From Gammaproteobacteria bacterium (lineage in GTDB: Bacteria > Pseudomonadota > Gammaproteobacteria > CAIRSR01), in the NCBI GenBank assembly GCA_963575715.1, contig CAUYTW010000033.1:1-43387 (forward strand): 43,387 nt of DNA. The letters are read 5' to 3'. This document shows, one piece after another, positions 6,046-41,583 of this stretch. The position numbers and the translations under genes were made by a program. The notes under the pieces are model-generated. The model was not told the DNA's origin, searched no databases, and was given only the letters and a program-made list of their open reading frames with translations. Each line of letters opens with the position of its first letter. The stretch's first letter is position 1.

Positions 6046-6083
6046 AGAGTGATGGCGTTCAATCCTTAATCCTTACTTGCGGC

Positions 6084-24765: not shown

Positions 24766-25587
24766 ATGATTATGGCCTCAGAAACAGTAATACTAAAACT
24801 AAGCGGTGCGACGCAAGCGGCGCAAGTGCCGATGTTGTCTGGACAATCCTTTGTAGTGGGCAAGACGGTTGCGGCCGGGAATGGTTTAAGTAACTGGCTT
24901 TTTTTACATCCTCTTTCATGCGCTGGATCAGCGTGTGGGCCAAGTGGAGGTATGGTTGCTCTTAAATTGGAAGGTGCCCAACAAGCGGGCTTGCTTTCTT
25001 CCATGGTCGGTCAGACGGTAACCGTGGGTCAGAGTCCAGTAGGAGCTGCGACCGCCAATAGTTGGTTGGTGCTTCATCCTTATATGGGCGGAGCGGTGGC
25101 GGGAAAAGGCATGACTACTGTTGGCATGGTCGCTAAGGGCGGTGGGCTACAAAAAGTAGCGGCTATTCGTGCCGTGGAAGCCGCTGAAATTGAAGGCGTA
25201 AAAGGCGCGGCAACGACTGGCACCATTAAGGGTACCGCTGGTAAAGCAGCTTTAGCAGGAAAAAACGCTGCAACAACTGTTGCTGTGAAAGGTACCGCTG
25301 GAAAAGGCACGGCCACCGCAGTAGGAAGCCTTACCAAAGGAAATGCGATTGTTACCGGACAATCGATGTTAATGGGAGGCACTAAAACTGCCACAGGTGC
25401 TACGGGTATCGCTACGGGAGGTGGAACAATTTGGACGGGTTCAGGCACCAAGTTAGGTCTGGGATTGGGCCTGGGATCGTTAGGGCCATTGTTGTTGGTC
25501 GCGGTTGCTTCAGCCATAGGCGTTGGCATTTACAGTTACATGCAACGTCCCGCCGCCGAAAATGAAATCGCTGAGTCTGTCAGTTAA
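24766..25587 (+). CDS. mamD: MamD/Mms6-family magnetosome crystal-shaping protein
   Basis: 273 residues. The C-terminal part has the diagnostic Mms6/MamD segment GGTIWTGSGTKLGLGLGLG (about 222-240) followed by one membrane helix (LGPLLLVAVASAIGVGIYSYM) and a short acidic tail (ENEIAESVS), the iron-binding end in Mms6-type proteins. The middle is rich in Ala, Gly, Lys and Thr. The N-terminus holds two diverged copies of a 45-residue unit (LKLSGA...NWLFLHP and LKLEGA...SWLVLHP), as in MamD rather than Mms6. These proteins sit in the magnetosome membrane and control magnetite size and shape. First gene of the cluster. Start ATG at 24766 or the next ATG at 24772; a HEARO-like element abuts it. 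Confidence 0.85.
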   Translation: MIMASETVILKLSGATQAAQVPMLSGQSFVVGKTVAAGNGLSNWLFLHPLSCAGSACGPSGGMVALKLEGAQQAGLLSSMVGQTVTVGQSPVGAATANSWLVLHPYMGGAVAGKGMTTVGMVAKGGGLQKVAAIRAVEAAEIEGVKGAATTGTIKGTAGKAALAGKNAATTVAVKGTAGKGTATAVGSLTKGNAIVTGQSMLMGGTKTATGATGIATGGGTIWTGSGTKLGLGLGLGSLGPLLLVAVASAIGVGIYSYMQRPAAENEIAESVS

Positions 25588-25631
25588 TCAATAAACATGC
25601 ATGCGGCGGCAACCAAAAATAAAAAATATAC

Positions 25632-25674
25632 AACCTCAATCTTGTAATTGATTGATGATTACAAAATTGAGGTT
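25632..25674. promoter_or_regulatory. Long hairpin between mamD-like and mmsF-like genes
   Basis: AACCTCAAT (25632-25640) pairs with ATTGAGGTT (25666-25674), and inside TTGTAAT pairs with ATTACAA, giving a stem of about 16 bp with single mispaired bases. It ends 15 bp before the ATG at 25690. No T run follows, so it may act as an RNA-processing or attenuation structure rather than a terminator. Confidence 0.6.
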
Positions 25675-25689
25675 AACGAGAATCAATAT

Positions 25690-26001
25690 ATGAACGTCAA
25701 ATCGCCACCGTATCAGCGCAAGATAATGTCGATTCTTAGTTATCTAGGAGTTCTTTGTCTGATACCATTAATTTTCAATAAAGATGATAATTATGTCGCA
25801 TTTCATGCCCGTCAGGGTTTAGTTCTTTGGATATGGACGATAGTTTCTATTTTTTCTTTATACATTCCTGGGATAGGGCGTTATTTTTTTAGTAGCTCAG
25901 TGTTTCCAATATTAATATGCAGTGGATTCGGCGTTTTTTCGGTACTTTTTAATAAATGTTGGAAGATTCCCGGTATTTTTATGTTGTCCACGAAACTCTA
26001 A
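25690..26001 (+). CDS. MmsF/MamF-like magnetosome membrane protein (copy 1)
   Basis: 104 residues from the ATG at 25690; a TTG at 25648 would add 14 residues but lies inside the hairpin, so I prefer the ATG. DUF4870-type protein with three hydrophobic segments (about 15-30, 45-65, 70-90). The signature SYLGVLCLIPLIFNKDDNYVAFHARQG is shared with the second copy at 32386. MmsF is a regulator of magnetite crystal size and shape in the magnetosome membrane; MamF is its close paralogue and the two cannot be separated here by eye. It lies between the mamD-like gene and mamH. Confidence 0.8.
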   Translation: MNVKSPPYQRKIMSILSYLGVLCLIPLIFNKDDNYVAFHARQGLVLWIWTIVSIFSLYIPGIGRYFFSSSVFPILICSGFGVFSVLFNKCWKIPGIFMLSTKL

Positions 26002-26064
26002 TCATCAATTATTTATTATTTTGAATATAATATTTGTCTGAAATTTTGTTCGAGAGAAGAATCA

Positions 26065-27468
26065 ATGTCGCTGACAAGTAAACGGGAAGGTTGTCGGAAC
26101 TGTGTAAATCCATGCGGGCTGGAAGAGAGTGAGGCACAATTAAATAATGATGTTAAAGTGGAATTATTACAACCTCATCATCATAACGCTCTGTATCTCG
26201 TGGTAGCGGTGGTCATGATTTTAATGACGTTTATTGTCGCATTACAACCGTTATATCTATCAGAAATTCTTGGATTAGCTTATAATAATGCTGGTTTTGT
26301 AAATGCCAATATTCAAGTAATTTCTGAAGTGCTGGATTTAATCTTGGTTGGATATTTAGGTTACCTTTCTGATCGAATAGGACGTGTTTCTCTTTTAGTT
26401 TATGGTTTTCTATTCACGGGATTCATGGCATTGTTTGCGCCCTTCGATAAGGAAATCGCAATAGCGCTAGGACTAAGCGCATTATTGGTGTTTTATATAA
26501 TTCGTATTTTGATGTCGCTCGGCACTACATTAATCTGGCCTCAAATGATCACTCTAGCGGGAGATTATAGCAATCCTGGCGAACCAAGTCGATTGGTAAT
26601 TAATGTTGGCTTTATGATGGCTTTTGGAGTGAGCCTGGTTTATACTGTTTTTATGCAGCTCCCCAAGTATATTGGTTTGAAATACATCATGGTGATGATT
26701 GCCGTTATTGCTTTTACAGGAGGATGGTTAGCAAAAAATTTTTTAATGGATATGCCAATATTCAATCGAAAACAGATTCAACCTCCATTGAGTATGATTT
26801 TTAGTCTCATAAAAAAGAAAAAAAATCTTTCACTAAGTTTGATGGCGGCCTTTACCTCACGCAATGATATGGTGGTAATTGGACTATTTTTGATGACATG
26901 GTTTATCTATTTTGCCGATTTGATTCCAGGCATGACTCATGTACAGGCCGCGTCGCAAGGGGGAATCGTAATTGGTTTTATGGGAGGGGTAGTGTTACTC
27001 TCCATTCCTTTTTGGGGCAAAGCTATTGAAAATCTTGGTACAGTAATCGCAATGGCCGTAGCCTTACTTTTAACAGGATGTGGTTTTGCAATCTTAGGTC
27101 TAATCATCAATCCACTCGGATGGTGGATTTTGGTTCCAGTTGCATTGGTGGGCATAGGGCAAGCGGGATGTCTGATGGCATCGCAAATATTAGTATTGGA
27201 GCAGGCGCCTCAAGAAATTCGTGGTACTGTTCTTGGTGTTTTCAATACAGTCGGTTGTATTGGCGTTATCTTTTTTTTACAAGTTGGCGGATTTCTCTTT
27301 GACTGGATAGGACCAACGGCGCCTTTTACCATGGTTGGAATGGCCAATTTGCTAACCTTTGGTTATGCTCTGTTGGTTATAAAACATAAAGATATTCATA
27401 ATATCAATATTCAAGCTGTCTCAAACGATATAAGTAACGAGCGGTGCAATTTTCCAACAGAAATTTAA
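26065..27468 (+). CDS. mamH: Magnetosome MFS transporter MamH
   Basis: 467 residues, about 12 membrane helices, major facilitator superfamily. The motif after helix 2 reads GYLGYLSDRIGRVSLLVYG, matching the MFS G-x-x-x-D-R-x-G-R-R signature. MamH proteins are thought to help iron or solute movement into magnetosomes; loss lowers magnetite yield. The N-terminus (about 1-45) is hydrophilic with CRNCVNPCG, a cysteine pair. The position directly before mamI-mamE is the conserved start of the mamAB operon, which supports the name. Confidence 0.93.
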   Translation: MSLTSKREGCRNCVNPCGLEESEAQLNNDVKVELLQPHHHNALYLVVAVVMILMTFIVALQPLYLSEILGLAYNNAGFVNANIQVISEVLDLILVGYLGYLSDRIGRVSLLVYGFLFTGFMALFAPFDKEIAIALGLSALLVFYIIRILMSLGTTLIWPQMITLAGDYSNPGEPSRLVINVGFMMAFGVSLVYTVFMQLPKYIGLKYIMVMIAVIAFTGGWLAKNFLMDMPIFNRKQIQPPLSMIFSLIKKKKNLSLSLMAAFTSRNDMVVIGLFLMTWFIYFADLIPGMTHVQAASQGGIVIGFMGGVVLLSIPFWGKAIENLGTVIAMAVALLLTGCGFAILGLIINPLGWWILVPVALVGIGQAGCLMASQILVLEQAPQEIRGTVLGVFNTVGCIGVIFFLQVGGFLFDWIGPTAPFTMVGMANLLTFGYALLVIKHKDIHNINIQAVSNDISNERCNFPTEI

Positions 27469-27507
27469 TGTTTTTAAAAAACGTGTTTCAAAGAACGGGA
27501 GGGTTAG

Positions 27508-27732
27508 GTGTTTACAATCATATTTGGCTTAATCTGTTTATCCTTGGGTTTATGGGGTGTCTTTGCGTGGTGGTGGTCACTGGTGGAAGTTCTGCGCGGA
27601 TTAGTGCCGCTATTGGCGGTTATTCTAGGATTTGTGGCGTTGGGCGCGGGTGTCACGAAAATGCAAAAAAGCGTTCACGGGGAATCAATGGATCCCGAAA
27701 TGACGGATAATTCTTTACCTACTGACGAGTGA
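27508..27732 (+). CDS. mamI: Magnetosome membrane protein MamI
   Basis: 74 residues from a GTG with a GGGAGGG ribosome binding site upstream. Two membrane helices separated by the family motif WWWSLVEVLRGLVP; the second helix is followed by a short hydrophilic tail (KMQKSVHGESMDPEM). MamI is essential for magnetosome vesicle formation or early crystal growth, depending on the species. Its stop codon overlaps or touches the start region of mamE. Confidence 0.93.
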   Translation: MFTIIFGLICLSLGLWGVFAWWWSLVEVLRGLVPLLAVILGFVALGAGVTKMQKSVHGESMDPEMTDNSLPTDE

Positions 27733-27737
27733 TTGCT

Positions 27738-29762
27738 ATGTTTTTCAAACGGAGTGAGTGCGGTTTAGAAATGCGCAAGTACCTTTATTGGATTGGCCTA
27801 CTGGCTTTCCTCACTCTAGTAGGCAGTTATTGGTACTTAAATTATTTTTTAGACGAGATAGGTTTGGATGCGCATGAGCAATGGACCTCTCCGCCACCGC
27901 ATGGCGCGGGTCCATTTTCCACTATAAATATTGATCCGCCACCCTCACAGCCAGAAATAGCCGCCGCTCCTGTCGCATGGCCTACTGGAGTGCTTCGTCC
28001 TCCGGTAACAGCAGAGAATTCTTTTGCGACGGTGGTTCGTAATATTCTTCCCGCCGTGGTGAATGTTTCTACCCAAAATAATACACTTGGATCTAGGCAA
28101 AATTCCAACCCCGCAAATCAGCAGGCAGCTGGAGAAGGGATAATGAAATTTGCTAGTCCTTATTCAGGGGTCGCTTGGGAAAGTATAGGATCTGGTGTCA
28201 TTGTAACGGCGGATGGTTATATCGTTTCCAATTATCATGTTGTAGAAAATTCTAAGAATGTGCTTGTAACGGTATTTGGTTCGTTGGGGAATCAACGTTA
28301 TCCTGCTGAAATAGTGCAACTGGATGCTGCGCGCGATCTCGTTCTCTTAAAAATTAAACCAACCCAACCTATGCGGGTAGCTCCCCTCGGTAATAGTGAT
28401 GAATTACAGGTTGGTGAATCCGTAATTACTGTTGGTTGTCCATTCGGTTTAGATCAGACGGTAAGTAAAGGTATCGTGTCTGGTTTGCGTAAAATGGTTA
28501 CTATCGAGGGAGTAATTCACGATAATCTAATTCAAACCGATGCAGCTATTAATCAAGGAAATTCTGGAGGTCCGCTAGTTTCAGCGAGCGGGGATGTTAT
28601 TGGTATTAATACTGCTATTTATTCTCCAACTCAAGCATTTTCGGGTGTTGGTTTTGCAGTGCCGGTAAATACGGTGCGAGATTTTCTTAATGAAGTAATT
28701 TTATTACCGGAAGGGGTTGGAGGGATTAATTTTCCATTAACTCCTCAACCAGTAGCTGCTGCGCGTAAATTACCGCCTCCCATTCCACCTAATGCCATTG
28801 CACCACATGTAGATCGTGGTGCATGTGAAAATTGTCATCAAATTATAAAAACTGGTCAATTGGTAGCTCAATATGTCCAACCAGGAATAATCGATCCCAT
28901 GGTAAGCGCGAATGGTCGCAATGTCGCTCTACCTGTTTCTGAAAATTCCATTGGTGCTACTTTTAAACCAGTTGATCCTTATCTGATTCAACGTTTTCGA
29001 CCACCTTTTGATGGTGGTGTATTCGTGGCAAGAGTAAATCCTGGCTCGCCCTCTGCAATAGGTGGATTAGCGGATGGAGATCTCATCTTCAAGATGAATG
29101 GACGCTGGGTACGTACACCAGAAGAACTGCAAGCATTGTTAATGGGTATATCACCCGGAGAACGAATTCGCTTCGGGGTAATGCGTAATCAAGAGCGCAA
29201 GGAAGTCATAATCACACTGGGTACAGTGTCAGATATGGTACAGCCGGTTGCTGGGCGAGGATTTGGACCAGGTGCCGGACGAGGATTTGGACCAGGATTT
29301 ACATTTGGTGGACCAGGGCCAGCATGTGGTCGTCAGGCAGCCTATCCTTGTTTAGCGGCGGCCCAGCCGGTTGCCGCGATGGCTGCTACGCCCATGATGG
29401 CTCCCGAAGTAGTGAATCCGATGATAGCAGCACCAACTCTTCCTAAACAACAAACCGCATTGTCTAAACCACCAACTGAATTCGAATGGCAAGGGATGGA
29501 ATTACAACCCATCACTGCGGCTATGGTCACCAAGGATCCCACATTAATGAATAAATCAGGGGCGGTGATTCAAGAAATTGATCCTGGTTTGCAGGCGGAG
29601 AAGGCAGGGCTTAAAGCTAATGACATCGTCTTAGCCATTAATAGTCTGCCAGTCGCTTCCAATGCGGAACTTGATAAAGCGATTACGGCTACGAATCAGA
29701 TTAATACTATTCTTTTGGATGTGGAACGGGCTGGCCAACATAAGTTGGTTACCTTAAAATAA
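27738..29762 (+). CDS. mamE: Magnetosome HtrA-like protease and magnetochrome protein MamE
   Basis: 674 residues from the ATG at 27738; a GTG at 27729 overlaps the mamI stop. One N-terminal membrane helix (LYWIGLLAFLTLVGSYWYL) precedes a trypsin-like domain with the full triad H167 (SNYHVVEN), D200 (AARDLVLL) and S276 (GNSGGPL). Then comes one CXXCH magnetochrome motif (CENCH, 363-367) and two PDZ domains (about 425-500 and 605-674). Between the PDZ domains lies a Gly/Ala/Pro-rich linker with GRGFGPG repeated. MamE processes itself, MamO and MamP and controls crystal maturation. Well-studied homologues have two CXXCH motifs; only one is present here, plus two cysteines (ACGRQAAYPC) in the linker. 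Confidence 0.95.
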   Translation: MFFKRSECGLEMRKYLYWIGLLAFLTLVGSYWYLNYFLDEIGLDAHEQWTSPPPHGAGPFSTINIDPPPSQPEIAAAPVAWPTGVLRPPVTAENSFATVVRNILPAVVNVSTQNNTLGSRQNSNPANQQAAGEGIMKFASPYSGVAWESIGSGVIVTADGYIVSNYHVVENSKNVLVTVFGSLGNQRYPAEIVQLDAARDLVLLKIKPTQPMRVAPLGNSDELQVGESVITVGCPFGLDQTVSKGIVSGLRKMVTIEGVIHDNLIQTDAAINQGNSGGPLVSASGDVIGINTAIYSPTQAFSGVGFAVPVNTVRDFLNEVILLPEGVGGINFPLTPQPVAAARKLPPPIPPNAIAPHVDRGACENCHQIIKTGQLVAQYVQPGIIDPMVSANGRNVALPVSENSIGATFKPVDPYLIQRFRPPFDGGVFVARVNPGSPSAIGGLADGDLIFKMNGRWVRTPEELQALLMGISPGERIRFGVMRNQERKEVIITLGTVSDMVQPVAGRGFGPGAGRGFGPGFTFGGPGPACGRQAAYPCLAAAQPVAAMAATPMMAPEVVNPMIAAPTLPKQQTALSKPPTEFEWQGMELQPITAAMVTKDPTLMNKSGAVIQEIDPGLQAEKAGLKANDIVLAINSLPVASNAELDKAITATNQINTILLDVERAGQHKLVTLK

Positions 29763-29790
29763 ATCAACTTTTCGCCGAAAGGCGTTGATT
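29763..29790. promoter_or_regulatory. Intercistronic hairpin after mamE
   Basis: AATCAA pairs with TTGATT around an inner CGCC-GAAA-GGCG stem with a GNRA-type tetraloop; a bulge lies on the 5' side. No T run follows, so it may act in RNA processing between mamE and the next gene rather than in termination. Confidence 0.5.
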
Positions 29791-29809
29791 ATAGTAACGA
29801 GAAACGCTA

Positions 29810-31210
29810 ATGAACGAAGATAACAAATCCACACTTGATAATTCGGAAGAATTGCTGAAGACTAGCATTCCGGTAAAGATGGATGATGGAAATAAATTTG
29901 TTTCATCGAAAGATGACACAAGTATTCAATCATCTCCTCTGCCAGAACCGAGGCGTGTTAAAAACAACCCGCTATCTCCTAAATGGTGGTCATCAAAAAA
30001 TGAGTCTGGACAGTCAGTAGATAGTGACAAGGTGGAAATTGTAGCCGTGGAAACGACGGTCACTACTCAGCCCCAGCATTTTGGTAAAAATAATGAAGTA
30101 GTAGTCCCTGCTGGAGTTACTACCTCATTGATGGATAATCAAGCTGAAATAAAAGAACCTATCGTAGTCGTCACTTCGATGGATAGTCAACCTGAAGTAA
30201 AAGGATCGGAAACCACATCTCTACCTTCGTCAGGAATTATTTCTGAGTTATCTGATGGAGCGAAAAATATTATGGCAACCGTATCCGATTTTCCGCTAAG
30301 TAAACCATCTGGCGTGACAGTGGATGAAGAAAAAAAGATATTGAAGACAATGAGTGATGTAGCTTCAAAGTTCGCAAAATTAGATCCGTCTAATATCTCG
30401 AAAAAATCAGAAAATGTAACAAAAGCGGCGACTATTTCTGAGAGAGTATCTTCTCTTTCGCAAGGAGGATCTTTTGTAACGACTGCTGAAAAAGAATTAC
30501 GCTTGAAAGAAATCCGCGAAGCGGCAGTTCAGAAGATCGAGAAGAAAAAAATACTGGACGCGCAGTTGCTTTCCGCCATGACAACACCATTGGATGAAAA
30601 AAAATCGGAAGAGGCAGCTGTATCAACTGTCGTTCAAGATGTGCAGCCAGAGATAACAGTACCAGAAATAGCGGTTCCAATAGCGGAAATCGTTGTCTCC
30701 AACCTTGATACTTTAGTACCACCTCCGCCACGTCCTACTGGATCATTTTCGCAAAATAAATCAGAGATTCGATCTGCTACTCAAACTCGTATCAACGAAG
30801 CTTATTTGAGACAACTCAAAGGAGAAGAACCTCTCGTCGAAAACGTGCGGGAATCGAAAGAGCCGCCTATGGTAAATAGTACCCCTGTTGGTGGGCGTAG
30901 GGAGGTTCCCGTAGAATCATTGGGTACTGGTATCTTTAACGCACTTGGCGACGTGATTGGAGGTGTAGTCAATCTCGTTAATATAGTAGGTGATGGTGTC
31001 GGAAAAGTTACCGCAGTTAATCCAATTTCTCAAAACTCAGGCTCGGAGCGAATGGCTTTGGGGCTGCGAGAAATGTTCACTGGTGTGAAGGAAATCGTAA
31101 AGGGTGGTGGCAATATTGTAATTGGCACTGTCGGTATAGTTGCAATCCCAATAGTTGCTGCGATTCAATCTATCAAATCTTCCAATAATTCAGAATCAAA
31201 AGAGACTTGA
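29810..31210 (+). CDS. MamJ-position, low-complexity magnetosome linker candidate
   Basis: 466 residues lying between mamE and mamK, where mamJ is found in Magnetospirillum. The first 340 residues are hydrophilic, Ser/Thr/Glu/Lys-rich and predicted disordered, with loosely repeated segments such as TSLMDNQAEIKEPIVVVTSM / TSMDSQPEVKGSE and PEITVPEIAVPIAEIV. Two hydrophobic, glycine-rich stretches follow: NALGDVIGGVVNLVNIVGD (about 380) and GGGNIVIGTVGIVAIPIVAAI (about 435), which could attach it to a membrane. MamJ tethers magnetosomes to the MamK filament and is poorly conserved in sequence. I infer the same role from position and composition; the sequence itself does not prove it. Confidence 0.6.
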   Translation: MNEDNKSTLDNSEELLKTSIPVKMDDGNKFVSSKDDTSIQSSPLPEPRRVKNNPLSPKWWSSKNESGQSVDSDKVEIVAVETTVTTQPQHFGKNNEVVVPAGVTTSLMDNQAEIKEPIVVVTSMDSQPEVKGSETTSLPSSGIISELSDGAKNIMATVSDFPLSKPSGVTVDEEKKILKTMSDVASKFAKLDPSNISKKSENVTKAATISERVSSLSQGGSFVTTAEKELRLKEIREAAVQKIEKKKILDAQLLSAMTTPLDEKKSEEAAVSTVVQDVQPEITVPEIAVPIAEIVVSNLDTLVPPPPRPTGSFSQNKSEIRSATQTRINEAYLRQLKGEEPLVENVRESKEPPMVNSTPVGGRREVPVESLGTGIFNALGDVIGGVVNLVNIVGDGVGKVTAVNPISQNSGSERMALGLREMFTGVKEIVKGGGNIVIGTVGIVAIPIVAAIQSIKSSNNSESKET

Positions 31211-31286
31211 AAATTTTGTTTTCCGTAAAAAAACCTCTATTTAAAATTTTTATTTTTATAACCAGTTAATAAAAAAGGGGTTATGT

Positions 31287-32336
31287 ATGAGTAACATAGA
31301 CAATATCGATCAGCCATTATTGCTCGGGATCGATTTAGGGACTTCCCGTACCAGAATAATGTCTAACCGTGGTGTCCGTTCTGAGGTTTTCTCAGTAGTA
31401 GGTTATCCAAAAGATATTGTTGGTGTGAAATTGATGAAGCATTCTTACATGATTGGTGAGGAAGCTTTGAGGAGGCAATCTTATCTGGATATTCAATATC
31501 CCCTGGAGGATGGAGTTATTAAAGAGGCTAACGATCATGCCACCGATGCAGCTAAATTATTAATTAAGCATGCAATTAGCCTGGCTAATCCACAACCTGA
31601 TGACAAAATTTATGGTGTGTTGGGTGTTCCAGCTCGTGCCTCCATGTTTAATAAATCACAGCTTTTGAGAATTACTCAAGAACTATTTGATTTTTCCATG
31701 GTAGTCTCTGAACCCTTCATGGTTGCTTATGAAATAGGTGCATTAAATAATTCCATTATTATTGATATCGGTGGTGGTACCACAGATATTTGTGCCATGA
31801 GAGGTACTATTCCTACTGGTGAAGAGCAGGTCACCATTTTGAAAGCGGGTAATTATATTGATTTGGTTCTGGAAAATTTGATCAGAGAGAATCATCCAGA
31901 AGTGCAGATAACTTCCAGTTTAGCACGCAAGATAAAAGAACAATACGCTTTTGTTGGTGAATCACAAGAAGCGAAACTGGTTAATGTTCGTATAGGTGGC
32001 AAGCCAGCAGTGATTAATCTTACCAAGGAAATTAAAACTGCTTGTGAAACCATCATCGCTGAAATTGTTGAACATCTGCAAAGTTTAATTATGATTTTTG
32101 ATCCAGAGGGTCAGGATGAAGCGTTACAGAATATCTATCTGACTGGTGGTGGTTCTCGTATTCGTGGTTTGGATGCAGTAATTATTGATCGCATGAAGGA
32201 ATATGGCATAATTACTGTACGTCAAATTTCCGATCCTGATTTTTGTGGCGTGGCGGGTGCTTTAAAATTGGCAATGGAACTACCAACCCAATATTGGGAA
32301 CAAGTCGGTCAGGTAATCAATAAGGCAACTAAATAA
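31287..32336 (+). CDS. mamK: Actin-like filament protein MamK
   Basis: 349 residues, the normal MamK size. Actin-fold nucleotide motifs are seen: phosphate 1 LGIDLGTSRTR (about 12-22), phosphate 2 IIDIGGGTTDICAM (about 158-171) and the adenosine motif LTGGGSRIRGLD (about 285-296). MamK polymerises in the cytoplasm and lines up magnetosomes in a chain. AAAAAAGGGG lies at ribosome-binding distance. The gene follows the MamJ-position gene by 76 bp, so the filament and its likely linker are side by side. Confidence 0.96.
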   Translation: MSNIDNIDQPLLLGIDLGTSRTRIMSNRGVRSEVFSVVGYPKDIVGVKLMKHSYMIGEEALRRQSYLDIQYPLEDGVIKEANDHATDAAKLLIKHAISLANPQPDDKIYGVLGVPARASMFNKSQLLRITQELFDFSMVVSEPFMVAYEIGALNNSIIIDIGGGTTDICAMRGTIPTGEEQVTILKAGNYIDLVLENLIRENHPEVQITSSLARKIKEQYAFVGESQEAKLVNVRIGGKPAVINLTKEIKTACETIIAEIVEHLQSLIMIFDPEGQDEALQNIYLTGGGSRIRGLDAVIIDRMKEYGIITVRQISDPDFCGVAGALKLAMELPTQYWEQVGQVINKATK

Positions 32337-32385
32337 TTTCAGATGTTTTTTGTTCTAAAACTGTAAAACTAACCAAGAGGTCGTC

Positions 32386-32709
32386 ATGAGTCAAATTAAA
32401 ACGGTACAAACCCAATCTGGTCTAGGCCCAAAAATACTCGCTTGCATGAGTTATCTTGGAATCTTAGCACTGGTTCCACTTGTATTAAATAGTGATGATG
32501 ACTATATTCGTTTTCATGCCCGTCAAGGGGTAGTAATTTGGATGTGGGAAGTGTTGGCAATTTATGCCCTGGTAATACCAGGAGGGCGTTTATTTTTTAG
32601 TATCTCCAGTTTTTTATGTTTCACCTTATCGATAATTGGCTTGAGTTCAGTTCTATTAGGAAGGGCTTGGAAACTCCCGGTAATTGGGAATTGGGCTGAA
32701 TCCATTTAA
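32386..32709 (+). CDS. MmsF/MamF-like magnetosome membrane protein (copy 2)
   Basis: 107 residues, ribosome binding site AAGAGG. Three hydrophobic segments; DUF4870-type signature SYLGILALVPLVLNSDDDYIRFHARQG aligns well with copy 1 at 25690. Probably a second crystal size and shape factor. A mamF-type gene placed between mamK and mamL is unusual for Magnetospirillum, where mamF and mmsF lie in separate operons. Confidence 0.82.
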   Translation: MSQIKTVQTQSGLGPKILACMSYLGILALVPLVLNSDDDYIRFHARQGVVIWMWEVLAIYALVIPGGRLFFSISSFLCFTLSIIGLSSVLLGRAWKLPVIGNWAESI

Positions 32710-32751
32710 AGCGTTAAAATGTTATTATCGGGTTCACATCGGGAATCACCC

Positions 32752-32985
32752 ATGAAAAAAATTACGGCGAGACCATACAGCTCGCTGATGGGTGCAATGT
32801 TGGTGTTGATTTTTACCTCGCAGAACATGCACGAAGTAGAAATACGCTTGATTTTTGGATCACCATTTACGATGCCACTAATTGTAATTATCTTGGGGGC
32901 ATTTATTAGTGGTTTTCTAGTAGCAACTTTGATACGCAAGAATCGCAATCGTGTTCGAGTTATGGAAAACATAGATAGGGAATAA
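32752..32985 (+). CDS. mamL: Magnetosome membrane protein MamL
   Basis: 77 residues from ATGAAAAAA; an upstream alternative start at 32719 would add 11 residues. Two membrane helices: SLMGAMLVLIFTSQNMHEVE and TMPLIVIILGAFISGFLVATL, then a basic tail (RKNRNRVRV). LapA-like (DUF1049) fold. MamL is needed for invagination of the inner membrane, and the basic amphipathic tail is thought to bend it. The position before mamM is conserved. Confidence 0.9.
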   Translation: MKKITARPYSSLMGAMLVLIFTSQNMHEVEIRLIFGSPFTMPLIVIILGAFISGFLVATLIRKNRNRVRVMENIDRE

Positions 32986-33054
32986 TAGTAGAAATTAGTC
33001 AATAATCTCTTCGATCCTCAATAATTGAATTTGAGTGTTGTTTAATTTAAATTT

Positions 33055-33099
33055 GTTGCCACCAATCGTTTACACGATTTGCGTGGCAACGTATTTTTT
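33055..33099 (+). terminator. Intrinsic terminator after mamL
   Basis: GTTGCCAC (33055-33062) pairs with GTGGCAAC (33083-33090), and inside AATCG pairs with CGATT; a run of six T follows at 33094-33099. It implies that mamM onward has its own promoter in the 100 bp that remain. Confidence 0.8.
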
Positions 33100-33162
33100 G
33101 GTTCTCTGTGCTAATGATATCTTTTGAAACAAATTTAATTTTGTTTTTTGTTTAAGAACCTC

Positions 33163-33203
33163 TCGAATCGTTAAGATCGATTAGGTTTCCACGCCGAGGA
33201 TCT
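33163..33203 (+). mobile_element. HEARO-like 3' end before mamM (diverged)
   Basis: An imperfect hairpin (AACCTC...TTAGGTT) is followed by TCCACGCCGAGGA (33188-33200), identical over 13 bases to the leader of mamT, then CT and ATGA. GGTTTCC-x-CGCCGA also matches the 3' end of the copy before the 42361 gene (GGTTTCC-GCGCCGA). GAGG lies at Shine-Dalgarno distance from mamM. The 5' core of the element is not recognisable. Confidence 0.4.
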
Positions 33204-34145
33204 ATGAACTATTCTAAGTGCATCGTGTGCTATCACGCGGTTGGCTGGATCGGCTTAGGCGCTAATTTTGCCATTTCGATTCTGAAAATCGTGGTTGGGG
33301 TTATTTCTGGTTCCCATGCGCTAGCGGTGGATGCATTGTATTCAGGAAAGGACGTTCTTACTTCGTTTCTAATTATTTTGGGATTGAAATTCACCAAACA
33401 ACCAATTGATGAGGAACATCAATTTGGACACGGAAAAGCTGAGTTTCTTTTTTCGATGATAATAGGTCTTTCTTTAATAATTATTACCGCACTTGTTCTC
33501 TATTTCGAGGCGGGTAAATTGATTCAGGGAACCCACCATGCTCCACATTTGATTGCGTTATGGACAGCGATTTTTGCCGCAGGTGCCAATGTGATGCTGG
33601 CTAGGTATACGCGATGTGTGGCTTTCCAAATTAATAGTCCGATGGTTGGAGTACTCACTCAACATCAAAAATCAGATGCTACTGCTTCTTTGGCGGTCGC
33701 GTTGGGTATTATTGGTTCTCATTATCTTAATATGCCATGGTTGGATACGGTGGTAGCGGTAGGTGAATGTATTGACCTTGGTTACATGGGAGGAGAAGTT
33801 TTTATCCATGCAGTGCGTGGACTTATGGATATTGCTGCACCGGAAAAAGTCGTAACTAAGATTCAAAAACTTTCCTCACTTATTTCAGGTGTCAAAAAAG
33901 TTGAAATAGTACGAACACGACGGGTAGGACAAGAAATTTGGGTTTCCTTGGTGATCGGAGTCGATCCGGAATTGTCCATTCATGAAGCGAAGAAAATAAG
34001 TCTTGTGGTAAGGAAAAATTTATTTGAATCCATTCCGCATTTAGGAGAAGTTAATGTCCATTTCAAATCCGTAAAGGGTTCAGTACCTGAATTGGACTAT
34101 ATCTTGCGTCAAAGTCGTTCGCATCTCGAGCTGGAGATATCCTGA
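33204..34145 (+). CDS. mamM: Magnetosome iron transporter MamM (cation diffusion facilitator)
   Basis: 313 residues, cation diffusion facilitator with five or six membrane helices and a C-terminal cytoplasmic domain of about 90 residues. Metal-site candidates are Y46 and D50 (VDALYSGKD) and H154 and D158 (QHQKSDATA), matching MamM rather than the bacterial zinc exporters. The N-terminal CIVC pair is typical. MamM imports iron into the magnetosome lumen with MamB, which it stabilises. Its stop codon overlaps the mamN start (TGATG), so the two are translationally coupled. Confidence 0.95.
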   Translation: MNYSKCIVCYHAVGWIGLGANFAISILKIVVGVISGSHALAVDALYSGKDVLTSFLIILGLKFTKQPIDEEHQFGHGKAEFLFSMIIGLSLIIITALVLYFEAGKLIQGTHHAPHLIALWTAIFAAGANVMLARYTRCVAFQINSPMVGVLTQHQKSDATASLAVALGIIGSHYLNMPWLDTVVAVGECIDLGYMGGEVFIHAVRGLMDIAAPEKVVTKIQKLSSLISGVKKVEIVRTRRVGQEIWVSLVIGVDPELSIHEAKKISLVVRKNLFESIPHLGEVNVHFKSVKGSVPELDYILRQSRSHLELEIS

Positions 34146-35440
34146 TGGCGGCGGCCCCATTGAGCGTGGTACTGTTTGTATTAGTTTTTTTTCTCGTGGA
34201 AACTGGAAAGGTGGGTCGTCATCAAGCCATGCTCGCGGGAGCAATTTTGATGCTTATGCTAGGTTGGATATTTGATTTCTATGCACTGCATCAAGCGCTA
34301 AAATCTATTTATTTCGATACACTTGCATTAATTTTTGGAATGTCGCTCGTCGGAAACATTTTGATTCGGTCCGGGCTATTTAATGTACTTGCTATGAAGG
34401 TGACGGCTTATTCACGAGGCAATGCTCAATTAGTTTTAGTGTTGCTAGTATTAATTACTTATGGTTTTTCATTGGTAGTGAATAATCTGGGTACGATGTT
34501 AATTATATTGCCACTGACTTTAGCCTTATGTAACGAAGCAAGGTTGGAACCCGTGCCAATTGTTATTGCGGAATTAATTGCATCTAATCTCGGAGGTGCA
34601 TCTACGCTGATTGGTGATTTTCCCAATATGATTATTGGCGCGGCGGGAAAACTCCATTTTGATGATTTTATTGGTGGCATGATGGTACCCTGCCTGATGA
34701 TGCTGGCGATCTTGCTGGGATATTTTGGTAAACGCATGGCGCAATCAAGTCATGATGGTGGAATAATGATGGAAAAACAAATTTTTGAACAAAAAGGTAT
34801 CAACAATTATCTTTTACGAGTGGGAATCACAATTTTAAGCGTGATGCTATTAGCCATGCTGTTCGCTTATCCTCTTGGCTTGCGGCCAGGCACTATTGCT
34901 TTAGTGGCAGGCGTGGTTATTCTCATTTTTGGCCGCGTACCACATGAATTTTTTTTTAAAGCCATAAGTGGTGCTGATATCTTTTTTTTCGCATCCTTAT
35001 TTATTATGGTAGGTGGATTACAATCGGCGGGGGTATTAACAATTTTTCACGAATTAATTGTTACCTGGGGTGGAAATAATATTACCCAGTCTTTATTGTT
35101 GTTCATGTTGTTGAGTGCGCTGTTGACTCCTTTTCTAAACGCAGGTCCCGCAACAGCACTACTTATTCCAGTAGCGGAAGTGATAAATCGAGACTTTCCC
35201 GGCAGCCAAGTATGGTGGGCGCTTTCCCTTGGTGTTTTGGTCGGATCCTCGGCAACTCTTTCTGGGGCCACAGCGGGACCGGTAGTAGCTAATCAAATGT
35301 TGCATCAACTCAAAGATCATCAGCGCATGTCCCACTCCGGTTGGATATTGGATTCAAGAAAATATCGGCAATGGGGCATACCAATTGCAGGTAGCTTTCT
35401 TTTATTTTCAATGTTTTATATTGCGATGTGGATTCAATGA
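34145..35440 (+). CDS. mamN: Magnetosome transporter MamN (ArsB/NhaD type)
   Basis: 431 residues with about 11 membrane helices, ion transporter superfamily related to ArsB and NhaD. Helix-breaking motif segments such as VVNNLGTMLIILPLTLALCN and LGGASTLIGDFPNMIIGAAG (about 150-170) match the two inverted repeats of that superfamily. MamN is thought to remove protons released during magnetite formation, but the ion has not been shown. It overlaps mamM at the 5' end and mamO at the 3' end by the four-base ATGA type. Confidence 0.94.
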   Translation: MAAAPLSVVLFVLVFFLVETGKVGRHQAMLAGAILMLMLGWIFDFYALHQALKSIYFDTLALIFGMSLVGNILIRSGLFNVLAMKVTAYSRGNAQLVLVLLVLITYGFSLVVNNLGTMLIILPLTLALCNEARLEPVPIVIAELIASNLGGASTLIGDFPNMIIGAAGKLHFDDFIGGMMVPCLMMLAILLGYFGKRMAQSSHDGGIMMEKQIFEQKGINNYLLRVGITILSVMLLAMLFAYPLGLRPGTIALVAGVVILIFGRVPHEFFFKAISGADIFFFASLFIMVGGLQSAGVLTIFHELIVTWGGNNITQSLLLFMLLSALLTPFLNAGPATALLIPVAEVINRDFPGSQVWWALSLGVLVGSSATLSGATAGPVVANQMLHQLKDHQRMSHSGWILDSRKYRQWGIPIAGSFLLFSMFYIAMWIQ

Positions 35441-37251
35441 GCAATGACACTCCCCCCTTGCGGCCTTTTTGTTGGCAGGCCTGGAAGATTCCTGTCTTAA
35501 TCCTCGTGTTACTTTATTTCGGCACGCTTGCTTGGACCTATCATCTAGTTAAAGAACACAATGTGTTGGGATTGATGGCCACTGGGAACACAACCAGGAT
35601 TGCCAGCGCGCGGCCTGTCGCGCTCAATGTTCTTCCTAGTGAGGAACGCGCGGCTGTAGTGAATATCGGTGGCACCTTAAAATCACCATCTGCGGGAATG
35701 TTGCCTTATGTCTCGGTAGGTTCAGGAGTGTTGGTTAGTCCAATCGGTTACGTGGTTACGGCTCAACATCTCATTCAAGATCTTGCTGAGATTCAGGTGC
35801 GAGTACAAACCAATCAAGGGCCAAAACAATATTCCGCTAAGATGGTCAAGGTAGTGCCTGAACATGATTTAGCATTACTAAAAATTGTGAGCCGAGATCG
35901 TTTTTCTTATTTAGCTTTGGAAAATGGATTGGTGCAGACTGGAGAAATCGTGCGTGCCTGGGGTGATCCAATGGGAACCGATGCAATGCGACATCTTGGC
36001 GCAGTGACCCAGCTCAACCTAAATAATTCGATGCAAATTCTCAATCGTCGCTTTACTCATTTGATGCAAACGGATGCCGTTGTGCATTGGTCACAGAGCG
36101 GCGGTCCATTAATCAATGGAAACGGTCGATTGGTTGGCATTAATCTCGCTGTTGAGGATCCTAATATCGGAATCGTGGGTTATGCGGTTCCAGCCCAAAT
36201 ATTGATGACCCATTTTCAAGAATTGATCAATTTCCCTAAGGAACCGCTCTCTACATCAGTAGGGCGACCTGCGGATCGTTGGTGGAAACGGGTCAAAAAT
36301 TTCATGCAAAAAAATTTAGGTCAGAATGCTATTCCCTTCACGATTGCTGCCCCAGTGCGCGATCTCGCTCATGAGCCGACAACGCGAATTTTAGGTTATC
36401 CCATTGCCAATTTTTTTGGGCTGTTGCTGTTGGGATTTATATCAGGAATTAGCGGTGGCATGATGACCATGGGGGGAGGGATCATTAAGGTCACGGGTTT
36501 AATGTGGCTTTTTGGTTATGGGCTGCTATTGGTGCGTCCGGTTGCGTATATCACCAACATTTTTATGTATGGTGCTGCCACTCTTCGTTATCGTCAGGAT
36601 GGATTGCTGCGTTTTGATCTTTGTCGACCTCTGATTCCCTGGGCCATGGGTGGCATGGTGTTTGGTTACTTTATTGGCAACGTACTTAGCACCACCATTA
36701 TTCAATGGTTACTGGGTGGCTTCGCCCTAATACTTGCCATCAAGATGTTGGTGGAGATATCTGAAAGCACGAGCCATCAAGAATTCGATGAGGATGACAT
36801 TTCGCCAGACTCACGATTTATGAGTCGCGTATGGCGTTATTTAGGTACACGCGATTTACCTTCGAACAAACCATCCCAAACAAGAATACATGGAGTGTTG
36901 GGACTGCCAATGGGACTAATCAGCGGGATTCTTGGCATCACCGGAGGCGTAGTGGAAGTACCGTTACAGCGTTATCTGGCGAAGGTGCCCCTGCGCAATG
37001 CCATCGCCAACAGCGCCACACTGGTATTTTTTGCCTCATTGGTTGGTTCGGTGGTGGCCTTGATCCATGGCACACAAAATGGTTCGTTTGAATGGCAGAC
37101 GCCGGTAATTATGGCTTTTATCTTGACTCCTGGTGCTTGGGTGGGCGGTAAGCTCGGAGCCTGGTTGACCGCAGTTGTACATTTAAATACTTTACGCTGG
37201 GTCTATGCGTTATTAATGTTCGTAATTGCAATCAGGATGTTTTTGTCATGA
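35437..37251 (+). CDS. mamO: MamO: trypsin-like domain fused to a TauE/SafE-type transporter domain
   Basis: 605 residues from the ATG overlapping the mamN stop. One N-terminal membrane helix leads to a trypsin-like domain (about 60-265). In Magnetospirillum this domain is a pseudoprotease with H116, D149 and T225, and H148 helps bind metal. Here H111 (TAQHLIQ), H143-D144 (PEHDLALL) and S221 (SQSGGPL) occupy those places, so the nucleophile position is serine, although the oxyanion-loop Gly-Asn is replaced by Ser-Gln. The C-terminal half (about 325-605) has about eight membrane helices with [12 protein letters not shown] and [13 protein letters not shown], typical of TauE/SafE. MamO promotes magnetite nucleation. 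Its stop overlaps the mamP start. Confidence 0.94.
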
Positions 37252-38015
37252 AACCAAAATTATTTCCACTGCTGAAAAGCGTTGAACAAATTGGTTATGT
37301 CATTACATCAATTGGTTTCATCATATTCTGCGGAGTTATACTTGCCGCACTGTTTGGTCGCACGAGCTGGGAAAGTTCTCAACCAACCAAAACATTAAGT
37401 CAGGACCAGTTAGAACCACCAATAGCGGTTGGTCACGGGCCAAGAAAATTGCGTAATCCCCAGCTTAAGGCGTATGTGGGTCCTAATATTCGTTTATCGG
37501 AGGCTCATTGGCAGGGGCTTGAAGCATTACCATTGAGCACAGAATTGAAACAAAAATTGCGCTTACCTGATACGTTGAACGGATTATTGATCGATGAAGT
37601 CACGTTGAACGCGGCGGCGAGTGGTTTATTAGCAGGAGACGTGCTGGGAGCGGTCAACGGAATAGAAGTGAATAGTCTTGAAGCCTTAGTGCAGGTATCC
37701 AGGCTAGTACAAAATCAAACGAATGTAATGGTAACCGTCTACCGCAAGGGACAATGGCTTTCTTTCACGCTATCAGCGCCAGATAATCTAGGATTCGCTC
37801 AGGCGGAGACAGCGCCAATGATCCTCCCCGGAGAAATTATGCCACACCCCTATCGTGGACCTTGTACGGAATGTCATGCTATTGGTACTACAGGACATAT
37901 TGTGCCCGATCCAGATAATATTATTTTGCCACCTCCTCCAATTTCTGCCAAGGTAACCACGCCACCTCATAAAGATAGAGGACCGTGTCGTGCTTGCCAT
38001 CAAATTATCCAATAA
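37248..38015 (+). CDS. mamP: Magnetosome PDZ multihaem cytochrome MamP
   Basis: 255 residues: N-terminal membrane helix (about 15-35), a PDZ domain (about 95-180, [20 protein letters not shown]), and two magnetochrome domains with CTECH (206-210) and CRACH (247-251). MamP is an iron oxidase that sets the Fe(II)/Fe(III) ratio for magnetite growth; its acidic pocket comes from PDZ dimers. The haems face the magnetosome lumen and need c-type maturation. Start ATGA overlaps the mamO stop. Confidence 0.95.
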
Positions 38016-38036
38016 ATGAGCCAGGACTAAAAATTT

Positions 38037-38699
38037 ATGAAAAATTATCAATTATCCGCCAACATTATTGATGAACTTCAACTAATTTCCTATGCAACGC
38101 TTGGAGTGCTCAAACGCGTTGCCGTGGGTTCAATTGAACTATTTAATTCCGTATTTGTCGTGGATGAAGAGTTACGGATGAATTTTTACCGGGATCGAGG
38201 CATTCATTACACCAAGCAAGGTCAATACGGGCAAGCGATTGCTTTTCTAAAGCAGGCGGCGCAAAAATATCCCACGGATGAATCTTTAGTTTTCCATTTA
38301 GGTTATAGCTACTTAAAAATGGATCGTATTATTGAAGGAATTGAATTATTAGCGCGAAGTGTAAAAGAGAAAACCGCTTCGACCCGTATTCGTTCGACTC
38401 TGGGAATGGCCTATATTCAGGCGAAGGAATATAAAAAAGCAGTGGAAATTCTGGAAGAAGCTATCCGTGAGGCCCCGGATAATTTTAACCTGCATTATCG
38501 CTTAGGATTAGCCCATGATCATCTTGTTGAATATGATGCAGCGATTGCCGCCTTCCAGGAAGCATTGCGTATTCGTCCAAATGAAACCAAAGTATATCAA
38601 TCCTTGGGTTTCATTCTGGATCAGCAAGGAAAACATGACGAAGCCGTGGTCTTTTTTAAAAAAACCTCTGAACTGACTGAATCATTAGTGGAAAATTAA
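38037..38699 (+). CDS. mamA: Magnetosome-associated TPR protein MamA
   Basis: 220 residues with about five tetratricopeptide repeats from residue 55 on (RDRGIHYTKQGQYGQAIAF, DESLVFHLGYSYLKM, IRSTLGMAYIQAKEYKKAV, FNLHYRLGLAHDHLVEYDAA, TKVYQSLGFILDQQGKHDEA). MamA forms a protein coat on the cytoplasmic face of magnetosomes and is needed for activating vesicles. It is separated from mamP by 21 bp and from mamQ by 6 bp, so all are probably co-transcribed. Confidence 0.94.
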   Translation: MKNYQLSANIIDELQLISYATLGVLKRVAVGSIELFNSVFVVDEELRMNFYRDRGIHYTKQGQYGQAIAFLKQAAQKYPTDESLVFHLGYSYLKMDRIIEGIELLARSVKEKTASTRIRSTLGMAYIQAKEYKKAVEILEEAIREAPDNFNLHYRLGLAHDHLVEYDAAIAAFQEALRIRPNETKVYQSLGFILDQQGKHDEAVVFFKKTSELTESLVEN

Positions 38700-38705
38700 G
38701 CCAAT

Positions 38706-39527
38706 ATGTCCGAAGATAAGATCGGGGATACCGACGATCTGGGAGAAATTCCCAACAGCGAGCGTTTGCGTCGCATGAAAGAGATCATGGGTCGGATCAA
38801 TAATAATGAAATTCCCGTCAAGGATCTAAAAATACCTCCTGTTAGGTCCAGACATTTCATTATTGTGGCTTCGATTGGTAGCGTGTTGCTTTTGGCATCG
38901 TCAACTTTGTATAAATATAATTGGTTTACCAATGCAGAGGAAGATGTCCTTTCTGCTAAGGGTGCAATCCAAAACGCTCTCCAACTTCGTTCCAATTTAT
39001 TCAGCAATCTCGTTAATCTCACGCTGAATCAAGCAGCCATGGAACAGGAGACGGTTCGTTATGTTGCGGAAATTCGATCCAAGCAGGGCAACCCGCCTGA
39101 GAAAGCACAACCAGTCGCTGCGAACACGGCGATGGAATTCAATGGTATGGGTGGAGCCGTTCCGGAAGCATTAGGACGATTGTTTGCTGTGGCGGAACAA
39201 TATCCTGATATCAAGACTTCCACCACCTATAAAGAACTTATGGATAAGTTAATGGAACTCGAAAAACGTATTCATCAACGTCGCGATGAATATAATGAAA
39301 GAGTGCGAATTTTTAATTCGACGACTAGTACCTTTCCCTGGCATTTCGTCGCTTATCTATGGGATTTTCATCGTTATCCATATTTTGAATCTGATCCCCA
39401 CCGCCCGGATACTGTTGAAATCAATCTTAGTGCGGATTCATTTCGTCGTTTGATTCCAACATTAAAAGGTGCAATTGAAGTCAAATCCGATAAAAATACG
39501 CCTATCTCCACTGAGGTTAAACCGTGA
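38706..39527 (+). CDS. mamQ: Magnetosome LemA-like protein MamQ
   Basis: 273 residues. A cytoplasmic N-terminus of about 50 residues, one membrane helix (HFIIVASIGSVLLLASSTLYK) and a LemA-type helical domain with the hallmark NLVNLTLNQAAMEQETV and LMELEKRIHQRRDEYNERVRIFN. MamQ is one of the few proteins essential for making magnetosome vesicles. The reading frame runs four bases into mamB (ATGA-type overlap by GTGA), and mamR, usual at this place in Magnetospirillum, is absent. Confidence 0.94.
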   Translation: MSEDKIGDTDDLGEIPNSERLRRMKEIMGRINNNEIPVKDLKIPPVRSRHFIIVASIGSVLLLASSTLYKYNWFTNAEEDVLSAKGAIQNALQLRSNLFSNLVNLTLNQAAMEQETVRYVAEIRSKQGNPPEKAQPVAANTAMEFNGMGGAVPEALGRLFAVAEQYPDIKTSTTYKELMDKLMELEKRIHQRRDEYNERVRIFNSTTSTFPWHFVAYLWDFHRYPYFESDPHRPDTVEINLSADSFRRLIPTLKGAIEVKSDKNTPISTEVKP

Positions 39528-40411
39528 AATATCCGCATTGCGCCCAATGCAGAAATCAAGTGGAATGGTATGTACTCGCTGGAAACACAGGTCTGGTTAT
39601 ATTTAAGGGTGCGTTGGGAGTAATGAGTGGAAGCGCGGCTTTAATCGCGGATACTTTCCATTCTTTTGCGGATGTATTAGCTACCATCGTTACTTTATTC
39701 AGCCTGAAGGTTTCAGCCCGTGCGCCAGATCATATCCATGCCTATGGTTATGGAAAAATTCAGCATATTTCTTCTGGAACTATTGGGTTGTTGCTTTTGG
39801 GTGGATCGATATTTATCCTGACTGGCTCCATGATTGATATCGTGCGTGGTACTTATGGAACTCCCAAGACTATGGCACTGTTGGGAGCTTTTTTTTCTAT
39901 TCTCGCCAATGAATTTATGTTTCGCTATGAAAGCTGTGTCGCTAAGGAGAATAATAGTCCGGCGATCATGGCAAATGCCTGGGATAATCGATCTGACGCC
40001 CTTTCTTCCACGGGCGTATTGATTGGACTCATTTTTGCGACTCTTTTAGGATATCCTATTGCCGATCCTGTGACAGCAGTTTTAATCGCCATCGTGATTA
40101 TTAAAATCGCGGTGACGCTTATCGTCGAGGCTATCCATAATTTAATGGATGCTACCCCTGATTTTGTAAAATCGTCTGATTTATTTGGGATTATTCGTAA
40201 ATTTCCTTCGGTAACCGGAATCAATTATTTACGCGCGCGCAGTCTCGGAGAAGATTTTTATATTGAGGCAGATGTTCGTGTTGATAAGAAATTAAAAGTA
40301 TATGAAGGTGATCTGATTGTGGCTACCTTGGAAGATCAGATTAAAAAAGAACTTGAACATGTAGGTAGTATTCAGATTTATCTATCACCAGAGGAGGAGC
40401 CAAGGCGGTGA
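39524..40411 (+). CDS. mamB: Magnetosome iron transporter and invagination factor MamB
   Basis: 295 residues, cation diffusion facilitator. The start is GTG at 39524, overlapping the mamQ stop. The N-terminal CAQC pair, the first metal motif D43-T-F-H-S-F-A-D50 and the second NAWDNRSDAL (about 145-155) are as in MamB. About six membrane helices and a C-terminal cytoplasmic domain (about 215-295) follow. MamB carries iron into the vesicle and also starts membrane invagination. Its stop overlaps the mamS start. Confidence 0.95.
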   Translation: MKYPHCAQCRNQVEWYVLAGNTGLVIFKGALGVMSGSAALIADTFHSFADVLATIVTLFSLKVSARAPDHIHAYGYGKIQHISSGTIGLLLLGGSIFILTGSMIDIVRGTYGTPKTMALLGAFFSILANEFMFRYESCVAKENNSPAIMANAWDNRSDALSSTGVLIGLIFATLLGYPIADPVTAVLIAIVIIKIAVTLIVEAIHNLMDATPDFVKSSDLFGIIRKFPSVTGINYLRARSLGEDFYIEADVRVDKKLKVYEGDLIVATLEDQIKKELEHVGSIQIYLSPEEEPRR

Positions 40412-40971
40412 AAAAAAAATTCTTACTTGATGGAATGTCGGTAGTGATTGGCGGCTTGCTATTTCTGATGGTGCTAATTGTAGTGGCGCTATTATTCCCA
40501 AATTGGTTTGTATCAGCACCATCAATCAATCAACAAGATGCTTCAATGCTATCGGTTAGCCCGATTGTCAACGACATTCCAGTGCGTATGATTCCAATAG
40601 CGACTGTGCAGCCCACGCCACGAGTGAATGGTAATGGAAAAGGTATCACATCATTACAAAAAACACCTCAGATAAATTTCCAAGGCATTGTCCAACAAAT
40701 TACGGAACAACCTCAAAGCGATGGGCAATTGCATGTCTGGATCAATTTACCTGACGGAACGGAGCGGCGGATCTCAGTTGCTCCAGGATGGTTTTTGCAA
40801 TATCTAGGATGCCCATTACAACATGACATCACTATTTCTGGTTCTGGTTTCATTTTTCAGCAAGAGATCGGCAACAACCTAGTCTACGCAAGAAAAATTG
40901 TAGTGAATGGTAAAACTTGCAATTTGCGCAATGATGAAGGCTTCGCTCTTTGGTCTAACAAGTTGCGGTAA
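40408..40971 (+). CDS. mamS: Magnetosome protein MamS
   Basis: 187 residues from a GTG overlapping the mamB stop. One N-terminal membrane helix (MSVVIGGLLFLMVLIVVALLF), a proline/threonine-rich linker, and a C-terminal domain (about 90-187) of beta type with WINLPDGTERRISVAPGW and CPLQHD. MamS is a membrane-anchored factor for crystal size and shape with a PDZ-like domain reported in homologues; I cannot confirm that fold by eye. Two cysteines are present, no CXXCH. Confidence 0.9.
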   Translation: MKKKFLLDGMSVVIGGLLFLMVLIVVALLFPNWFVSAPSINQQDASMLSVSPIVNDIPVRMIPIATVQPTPRVNGNGKGITSLQKTPQINFQGIVQQITEQPQSDGQLHVWINLPDGTERRISVAPGWFLQYLGCPLQHDITISGSGFIFQQEIGNNLVYARKIVVNGKTCNLRNDEGFALWSNKLR

Positions 40972-41060
40972 TCATCATCAAAAACCGTTGCAACCTGGAA
41001 AAACCGATGCCTGATTTGAGCTGAATCCATTGATTCTAATACCAAATGGTAGCGTTTTTT

Positions 41061-41106
41061 CACCTCGATCATTCGGAATCGAGGAGGTATCCACGCCGAG
41101 GATTTT
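41061..41106 (+). mobile_element. HEARO-like 3' end before mamT (diverged)
   Basis: A hairpin CCTCGAT (41063-41069) with ATCGAGG (41078-41084) is followed by AGGTATCCACGCCGAGGATT and ATGA. TCCACGCCGAGGA (41090-41102) is identical to the leader of mamM. GGGGGTATC in copy 1 compares with GGAGGTATCC here. GAGG is at Shine-Dalgarno distance from the mamT start. Confidence 0.4.
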
Positions 41107-41583
41107 ATGAATAGCGCGGAACGAATAAAGAATGGCGGGCGAGTGGCAGTGGTTATCCTGGTGATTTGTTTGATTGCCTGGGGACTGTGGCGAGAAAAAA
41201 TAGAGATAAATCCTACCCGCCAGATTCAAGGTGAAGTGTTGGGTTCGATGCCAAAGGCAATTCAGCCCCCACTGATCCAACCTCTGGCGGAAATAGCCAA
41301 CCCTACGCCATTACAGAAAACGCTAATTAAACGTATCCCTACTATTGGTCCGGATGCCAAAATGCCTCATTCCTTTTGGGGTCCATGCACTAAATGTCAT
41401 CTCATTCAGGGAGGTGCTCCTCCAGGGAGCCAACCAGCAACACCGGTGGCAAAAGTTTTCGAGCAGGTATCATCCATTCTCAAGGTGGGTCCGCCGATTT
41501 TACCTAATTCCATTCGACCCCATCCTGTTTCTGGACGTTGTATAAAATGCCATGATATTTTAGTTTATATAAAACCAAATTAA
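41107..41583 (+). CDS. mamT: Magnetosome dihaem cytochrome MamT
   Basis: 158 residues. One N-terminal membrane helix (VAVVILVICLIAWGLW) and two magnetochrome motifs, CTKCH (94-98, in HSFWGPCTKCH) and CIKCH (145-149, in HPVSGRCIKCH). Each is preceded by the Pro-His motif typical of magnetochrome domains. MamT acts in crystal maturation by electron transfer with MamE and MamP. It is the last recognised magnetosome gene here; mamU is not found. It is separated from mamS by 135 bp, in which a HEARO-like end lies. Confidence 0.94.
   Translation: MNSAERIKNGGRVAVVILVICLIAWGLWREKIEINPTRQIQGEVLGSMPKAIQPPLIQPLAEIANPTPLQKTLIKRIPTIGPDAKMPHSFWGPCTKCHLIQGGAPPGSQPATPVAKVFEQVSSILKVGPPILPNSIRPHPVSGRCIKCHDILVYIKPN

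Follow-up and report, generated by a model that had tools for sequence, protein, structure and literature searches.

The closest described system to the gene analysed here is MamO of Magnetospirillum magneticum AMB-1 (PDB 5HM9 and 5HMA), in which an HtrA-like domain is joined to a TauE domain and which proved to be the best PDB match of our protein both by sequence and by fold. In AMB-1, the exchange T225A at the nucleophile position brought no defect, and the exchanges H148A and H263A abolished magnetite (PMC4794232). Catalysis is prevented by E223 and W222; in the crystal structure, W222 diverts the peptide bound there, and the His-Asp pair sits behind the metal loop (PMC4794232). A degenerate triad, a residue other than glycine at position 193 and a tryptophan in loop L1 were described in the same study for every alphaproteobacterial MamO (PMC4794232). 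An older report, in the form in which it is cited in PMC3905215, gave no protease activity for MamO expressed in E. coli, and no protease assay of any serine-bearing MamO was found in the open-access literature.

Here, the window, that is, the whole stretch of 43,387 nucleotides analysed, carries a mamO gene whose features are listed in Table 1. The identity of this open reading frame as MamO, assumed in the original prediction, is borne out by architecture, position and phylogeny. Its product of 607 residues combines an HtrA-like domain with TauE at the C-terminus (Pfam Trypsin_2 at 98-238, TauE at 332-604), and the gene lies between mamN and mamP, as its neighbours are named by NCBIfam, in a mamAB-type cluster with the order mamD, mamH, mamI, mamE, mamK, mamM, mamN, mamO, mamP, mamA, mamQ, mamB, mamS, mamT. 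In the tree, 58 MamO rows stand on one side of a single branch, apart from MamE and HtrA (SH-aLRT 100). The NF040961 score of the window protein falls below the curated cut-off of 800 bits, which is a database threshold and not a biological trait; for comparison, L031 of Magnetococcales scores 700, also under 800, and the serine-bearing L046 passes with 896. The mamE of the same cluster likely encodes the active protease partner of MamO, to judge from its intact motifs. Between mamE and mamK stands an open reading frame in the slot that mamJ occupies in Magnetospirillum, and two large polyketide-synthase genes share the contig with the cluster. The mamO of the window is closest to that of Magnetococcales (about 56-59% identity), but bins named Thiotrichales belong to its family of four genomes, and the class-mates of this family bear the name Gammaproteobacteria; with the host class read from record titles and kinship, the cluster is a candidate for horizontal transfer from a Magnetococcales-type donor. 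In the sister genome G003 (loci L007 in G003:C201, L092 and L093 in G003:C41), the only mamO, with Asp changed to Asn, shares its contig with a mamE that seven stop codons interrupt, the intact mamE being on another contig, and G002 has two intact mamE copies. As read from these assemblies, mamE is duplicated in the family of the window, with one copy decaying.

Table 1. Genes, clusters and active-site codons of the window, with their counterparts in AMB-1 MamO and their states among 61 MamO sequences
Feature	Coordinates	Strand	Assignment and remarks
Two polyketide-synthase genes	3188..13640	-	889 and 2518 aa; KS, AT, DH, KR and AMP-binding loading domain
Magnetosome cluster	24766..41583		mamAB-type
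mamE	27729..29762	+	HtrA protease, intact H/D/GNSGG; magnetochrome and PDZ domains
466-aa ORF	29810..31210		no Pfam or NCBIfam match
mamN	34145..35440	+	upstream neighbour of mamO; NCBIfam MamN 503 bits
mamO	35428..37251	+	Pfam Trypsin_2 and TauE; NCBIfam MamO (NF040961) 710 bits; one MamO clade, SH-aLRT 100
H114 (CAT)	35767..35769	+	AMB-1 H116 (His57); kept in 59/61 MamO
H146	35863..35865	+	AMB-1 metal ligand H148; H in 59/61 MamO, 0/23 MamE/HtrA
D147	35866..35868	+	AMB-1 D149 (Asp102); Asn in sister G003; D 55, N 6 of 61 MamO
W221	36088..36090	+	AMB-1 W222 (position 192); W in 55/61 MamO
S222	36091..36093	+	position 193, AMB-1 E223; Gly in 1/61 MamO vs 23/23 MamE/HtrA
S224 (AGC)	36097..36099	+	position 195, AMB-1 T225
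H262	36211..36213	+	AMB-1 second metal ligand H263; H 56, D 3 of 61 MamO
mamP	37248..38015	+	downstream neighbour of mamO; NCBIfam MamP 284 bits; two magnetochrome stretches

Residues are numbered from the GTG at 35428. In the original prediction, counted from the internal ATG at 35437, H111, D144 and S221 had been read as a trypsin triad; these are H114, D147 and S224, and they do align with AMB-1 H116, D149 and T225. The serine was placed opposite T225 by phmmer against 5HMA/5HM9 (E 7e-32), by pairwise alignment with AMB-1 MamO (score 308, against 57 for the best of 200 shuffles) and by three MAFFT modes, and a misalignment of S224 was rejected on this concordance. The structure of residues 60-275 predicted by AlphaFold2 (mean pLDDT 91) had 5HMA (Z 29.8) and 5HM9 (Z 29.1) as its best PDB matches, at about 2.0 Å over 187-189 residues. 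Since the predicted fold superposes on the MamO protease domain in agreement with the sequence alignments, the serine is found at the nucleophile position and not off it. Position 193 is glycine in nearly all active trypsin-like enzymes, and the replacement of the oxyanion residues Gly-Asn by Ser-Gln had been recognised correctly, with S222 in place of Gly193 of the oxyanion hole and Q223 aligned with AMB-1 Q224. The metal histidine next to the aspartate, previously H143, is H146 and is kept; the second ligand H262 and the tryptophan of loop L1, both missed before, are also present. Among the residues of an active protease, His57, Asp102 and Ser195 are thus present and Gly193 is absent. The marks of MamO, a non-glycine residue at 193 with the L1 tryptophan, and a histidine next to Asp102 with another in helix 2, are all present, and the triad is complete rather than degenerate.

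In its domains, Trp192, non-Gly193, Gln194, di-His and location in a magnetosome gene cluster, the window protein resembles AMB-1 MamO, and it differs in Ser195 (Thr in AMB-1), in Ser193 (Glu in AMB-1), in an identity of about 36% over the aligned domain and in its host, which record titles place in Gammaproteobacteria. A likeness of active site is also shared with MamO of Magnetococcales, for example that of Ca. Magnetaquicoccus inordinatus UR-1 (L046), which belongs to the same starred clade and likewise combines Ser195 and a complete H-D-S with Trp192, non-Gly193 and di-His; here position 193 is alanine, and the identity is about 56%. With the MamE of the window and HtrA/DegP/DegS/DegQ it has the protease fold and His57/Asp102/Ser195 in common. 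However, MamE and HtrA keep Gly193 and Asn194 (Ser194 in 1/23) and lack di-His and Trp192, and MamE has PDZ and magnetochrome domains where MamO has TauE.

For the comparison across the family, genomes were scanned using six aligned MamO proteins and two peptide patterns of the TauE domain, a search blind to the active site, by which 61 loci were returned. The set that was read, these loci together with the window and sister G003 and minus two fragments, comprises 61 MamO, and most of the sequences compared come from metagenome bins. Outside Alphaproteobacteria, mamO loci occurred in records named Thiotrichales, Gammaproteobacteria, Mariprofundus, Nitrospirae and Nitrospinota; relatives of MamO were found neither in viral contigs nor, by DNA or protein search, on plasmids. 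Within the domain, position 195 ranks among the more variable columns (123 of 173 by entropy), with serine in 20 sequences, asparagine in 17, threonine in 11, valine in 7, glycine in 4 and isoleucine and methionine in 1 each. Threonine is the state of Magnetospirillum and its near kin, and asparagine is commoner across the 61. The difference from Magnetospirillum to which the original prediction drew attention is therefore real, but threonine is not the rule of the family, and serine at 195 in the window protein is an ordinary state. All four genomes of its family, in two genera, have Ser195, and the starred clade that joins this family with Magnetococcales holds 12 serines and 6 asparagines. 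The serine codon is AGY in 17 of the 20, one step from asparagine and threonine. It has switched from AGY to TCG in L014, within the window's own family, and is TCC in L067/L068; the latter lie inside a clade of asparagine and threonine, and their serine looks like a regain from threonine. An analysis of active-site residues on the tree, as had been proposed, thus gave a single MamO clade with serine throughout the family of the window, while at least one other serine, that of L067/L068, may have been regained.

At position 193, the 61 MamO have glutamate (23), alanine (22), serine (9), threonine (2), isoleucine (2) and one each of methionine, glutamine and glycine, and among the controls (13 MamE and 10 HtrA) His57, Asp102, Gly193 and Ser195 are invariant in 23/23. 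The published absence of Gly193 (60/61) and presence of the L1 tryptophan (55/61) generalise well to the wider family. The published degenerate triad does not hold for it: 17/61 keep H-D-S, none of the 17 has Gly193, and the degenerate triad was treated as non-defining for MamO. The sole Gly193 accompanies a threonine nucleophile in L037 (Nitrospirae HyVt-426, mamO at 4844 onward), where WGQTGG is found with His and Asp present; this protein is arguably a better candidate for residual activity than that of the window. Joint retention of serine and aspartate for catalysis was considered and is unsupported, Asp102 being kept in 17/20 serine rows and 38/41 others (Fisher p 0.38). The closest sister, G003, has a MamO 81% identical to that of the window in which serine is kept and Asp is changed to Asn (draft genome). 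On the tree, 11 changes were counted at position 195, of which 7 remained without long branches; in the latter tree, 6 changes fell at position 193, 1 each at Trp192 and His263, and none at His57 or the metal His101. Because positions 195 and 193 change often and His101, Trp192 and His263 hardly do, the conserved set in MamO is scaffold and metal site, not catalytic machinery. The dN/dS of the protease domain is about 0.07-0.10 between the window and its sister, a near pair (dS is saturated for several other pairs), which shows that the domain is maintained under purifying selection. Divergent forms also exist. L040 and L069 of Magnetococcales have complete H-D-S letters but lack di-His, Trp and Gln194, having lost the metal site with the triad letters still in place, and in L071 (Zetaproteobacteria PCbin4, 5905 and 6962) mamO is apparently split in two, a protease-like frame in which His57, Trp192 and Ser195 are missing and a frame for TauE by itself.

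We consider it highly probable that the window MamO is an ordinary member of its family, a pseudoprotease that binds metal, has a TauE-like transporter as its fusion partner and works next to an active MamE, with S224 non-catalytic. By analogy with AMB-1, the protease fold would act as the framework on which H146 and H262 are displayed for binding iron in the magnetosome lumen, so promoting magnetite nucleation, and the TauE part, as demonstrated in AMB-1, may be needed for switching on MamE. All residues for these two roles are kept in the window protein, whose gene cluster also contains an intact mamE. S224 would do no catalysis because, with serine in place of Gly193, the oxyanion hole could probably not form normally, and because W221 would block the path of the substrate. 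Serine would then be one of several residues tolerated at 195 (S, N, T, V, G), and S224 would most simply be an ancestral HtrA serine retained in the Magnetococcales-type branch. Several points speak against this reading. Ser193 is small, and a trypsin with Arg193 is active, so the loss of Gly193 alone is no proof of inactivity; serine is uniform in the four-genome family despite the change from AGY to TCG in L014, which could mean weak selection on the serine; and the Asp to Asn change of the sister is read from a draft genome.

Regarding history, the protein could be a true evolutionary intermediate, with the nucleophile in transit from serine to threonine and the family of the window half-way to a scaffold. 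This is possible, though doubtful. MamO forms one clade, outside which stand HtrA and MamE, all of these with serine, and the loss of Gly193 nearly everywhere with serine in 20/61 would fit an order in which the oxyanion hole went first. Indeed, since only 1/61 still has Gly193 but 20 still have serine, drift of the nucleophile probably followed the loss of the oxyanion hole; the state of 195 in the ancestor is argued here from clade composition. However, 18/20 serine-bearing MamO keep H101 and H/D263 and are thus no less specialised; threonine is found in L037, L048 and L047 at the base of the MamO clade, whose root the tree does not resolve, so that serine is one candidate for the ancestral MamO state; and the TCC codons of L067/L068 suggest regain. 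The idea of an intermediate, raised in the original prediction, survives in a weak historical sense, in that serine was maybe kept from an HtrA ancestor after loss of the oxyanion hole, but this serine is a common state of the whole clade. It is improbable that S224 was instead regained from threonine or asparagine and put to a new use, such as tuning, through a hydrogen bond, the His-Asp pair at the back of the metal site. Such a use would accord with the location of that pair in AMB-1 (PMC4794232) and with the codon switch in the sister L014, but serine is common in the Magnetococcales-type branch and nested within all of it, and retention is simpler.

The weakest alternative, also raised in the original prediction and not borne out, is an active or conditionally active protease using H114-D147-S224, with L1 opening on binding of substrate or metal despite Ser193: the complete triad letters, a predicted fold resembling 5HMA and DegS/DegP, the serine retained in 4/4 genomes of the family and the activity of human trypsin-3 despite Arg193 (PMC8609519) are outweighed by the absent Gly193, W221 in the substrate path, the Asp to Asn change of sister G003 with serine retained, a nucleophile column that varies freely among the 61 MamO and an intact MamE already in the cluster, so that this reading is very improbable. 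There is an equally slight chance that some serine-bearing MamO, that of the window included, are slow or metal-gated proteases with Ser193; if so, metal binding and proteolysis would coexist in one MamO domain.

Taken by itself, the serine of the window MamO is ordinary, and serine-bearing MamO may have been noticed earlier, the literature compared being open-access. Its meaning lies in the family. The picture drawn from a few strains is corrected in that the nucleophile is not always lost, Gly193 is lost in 60/61 and the di-His is kept. Natural variants with Ser, Asn, Thr, Val and Gly at 195 are available for testing, and the comparison suggests that in MamO the usual first or fixed lesion is that of the oxyanion hole and that the conserved function is metal binding.
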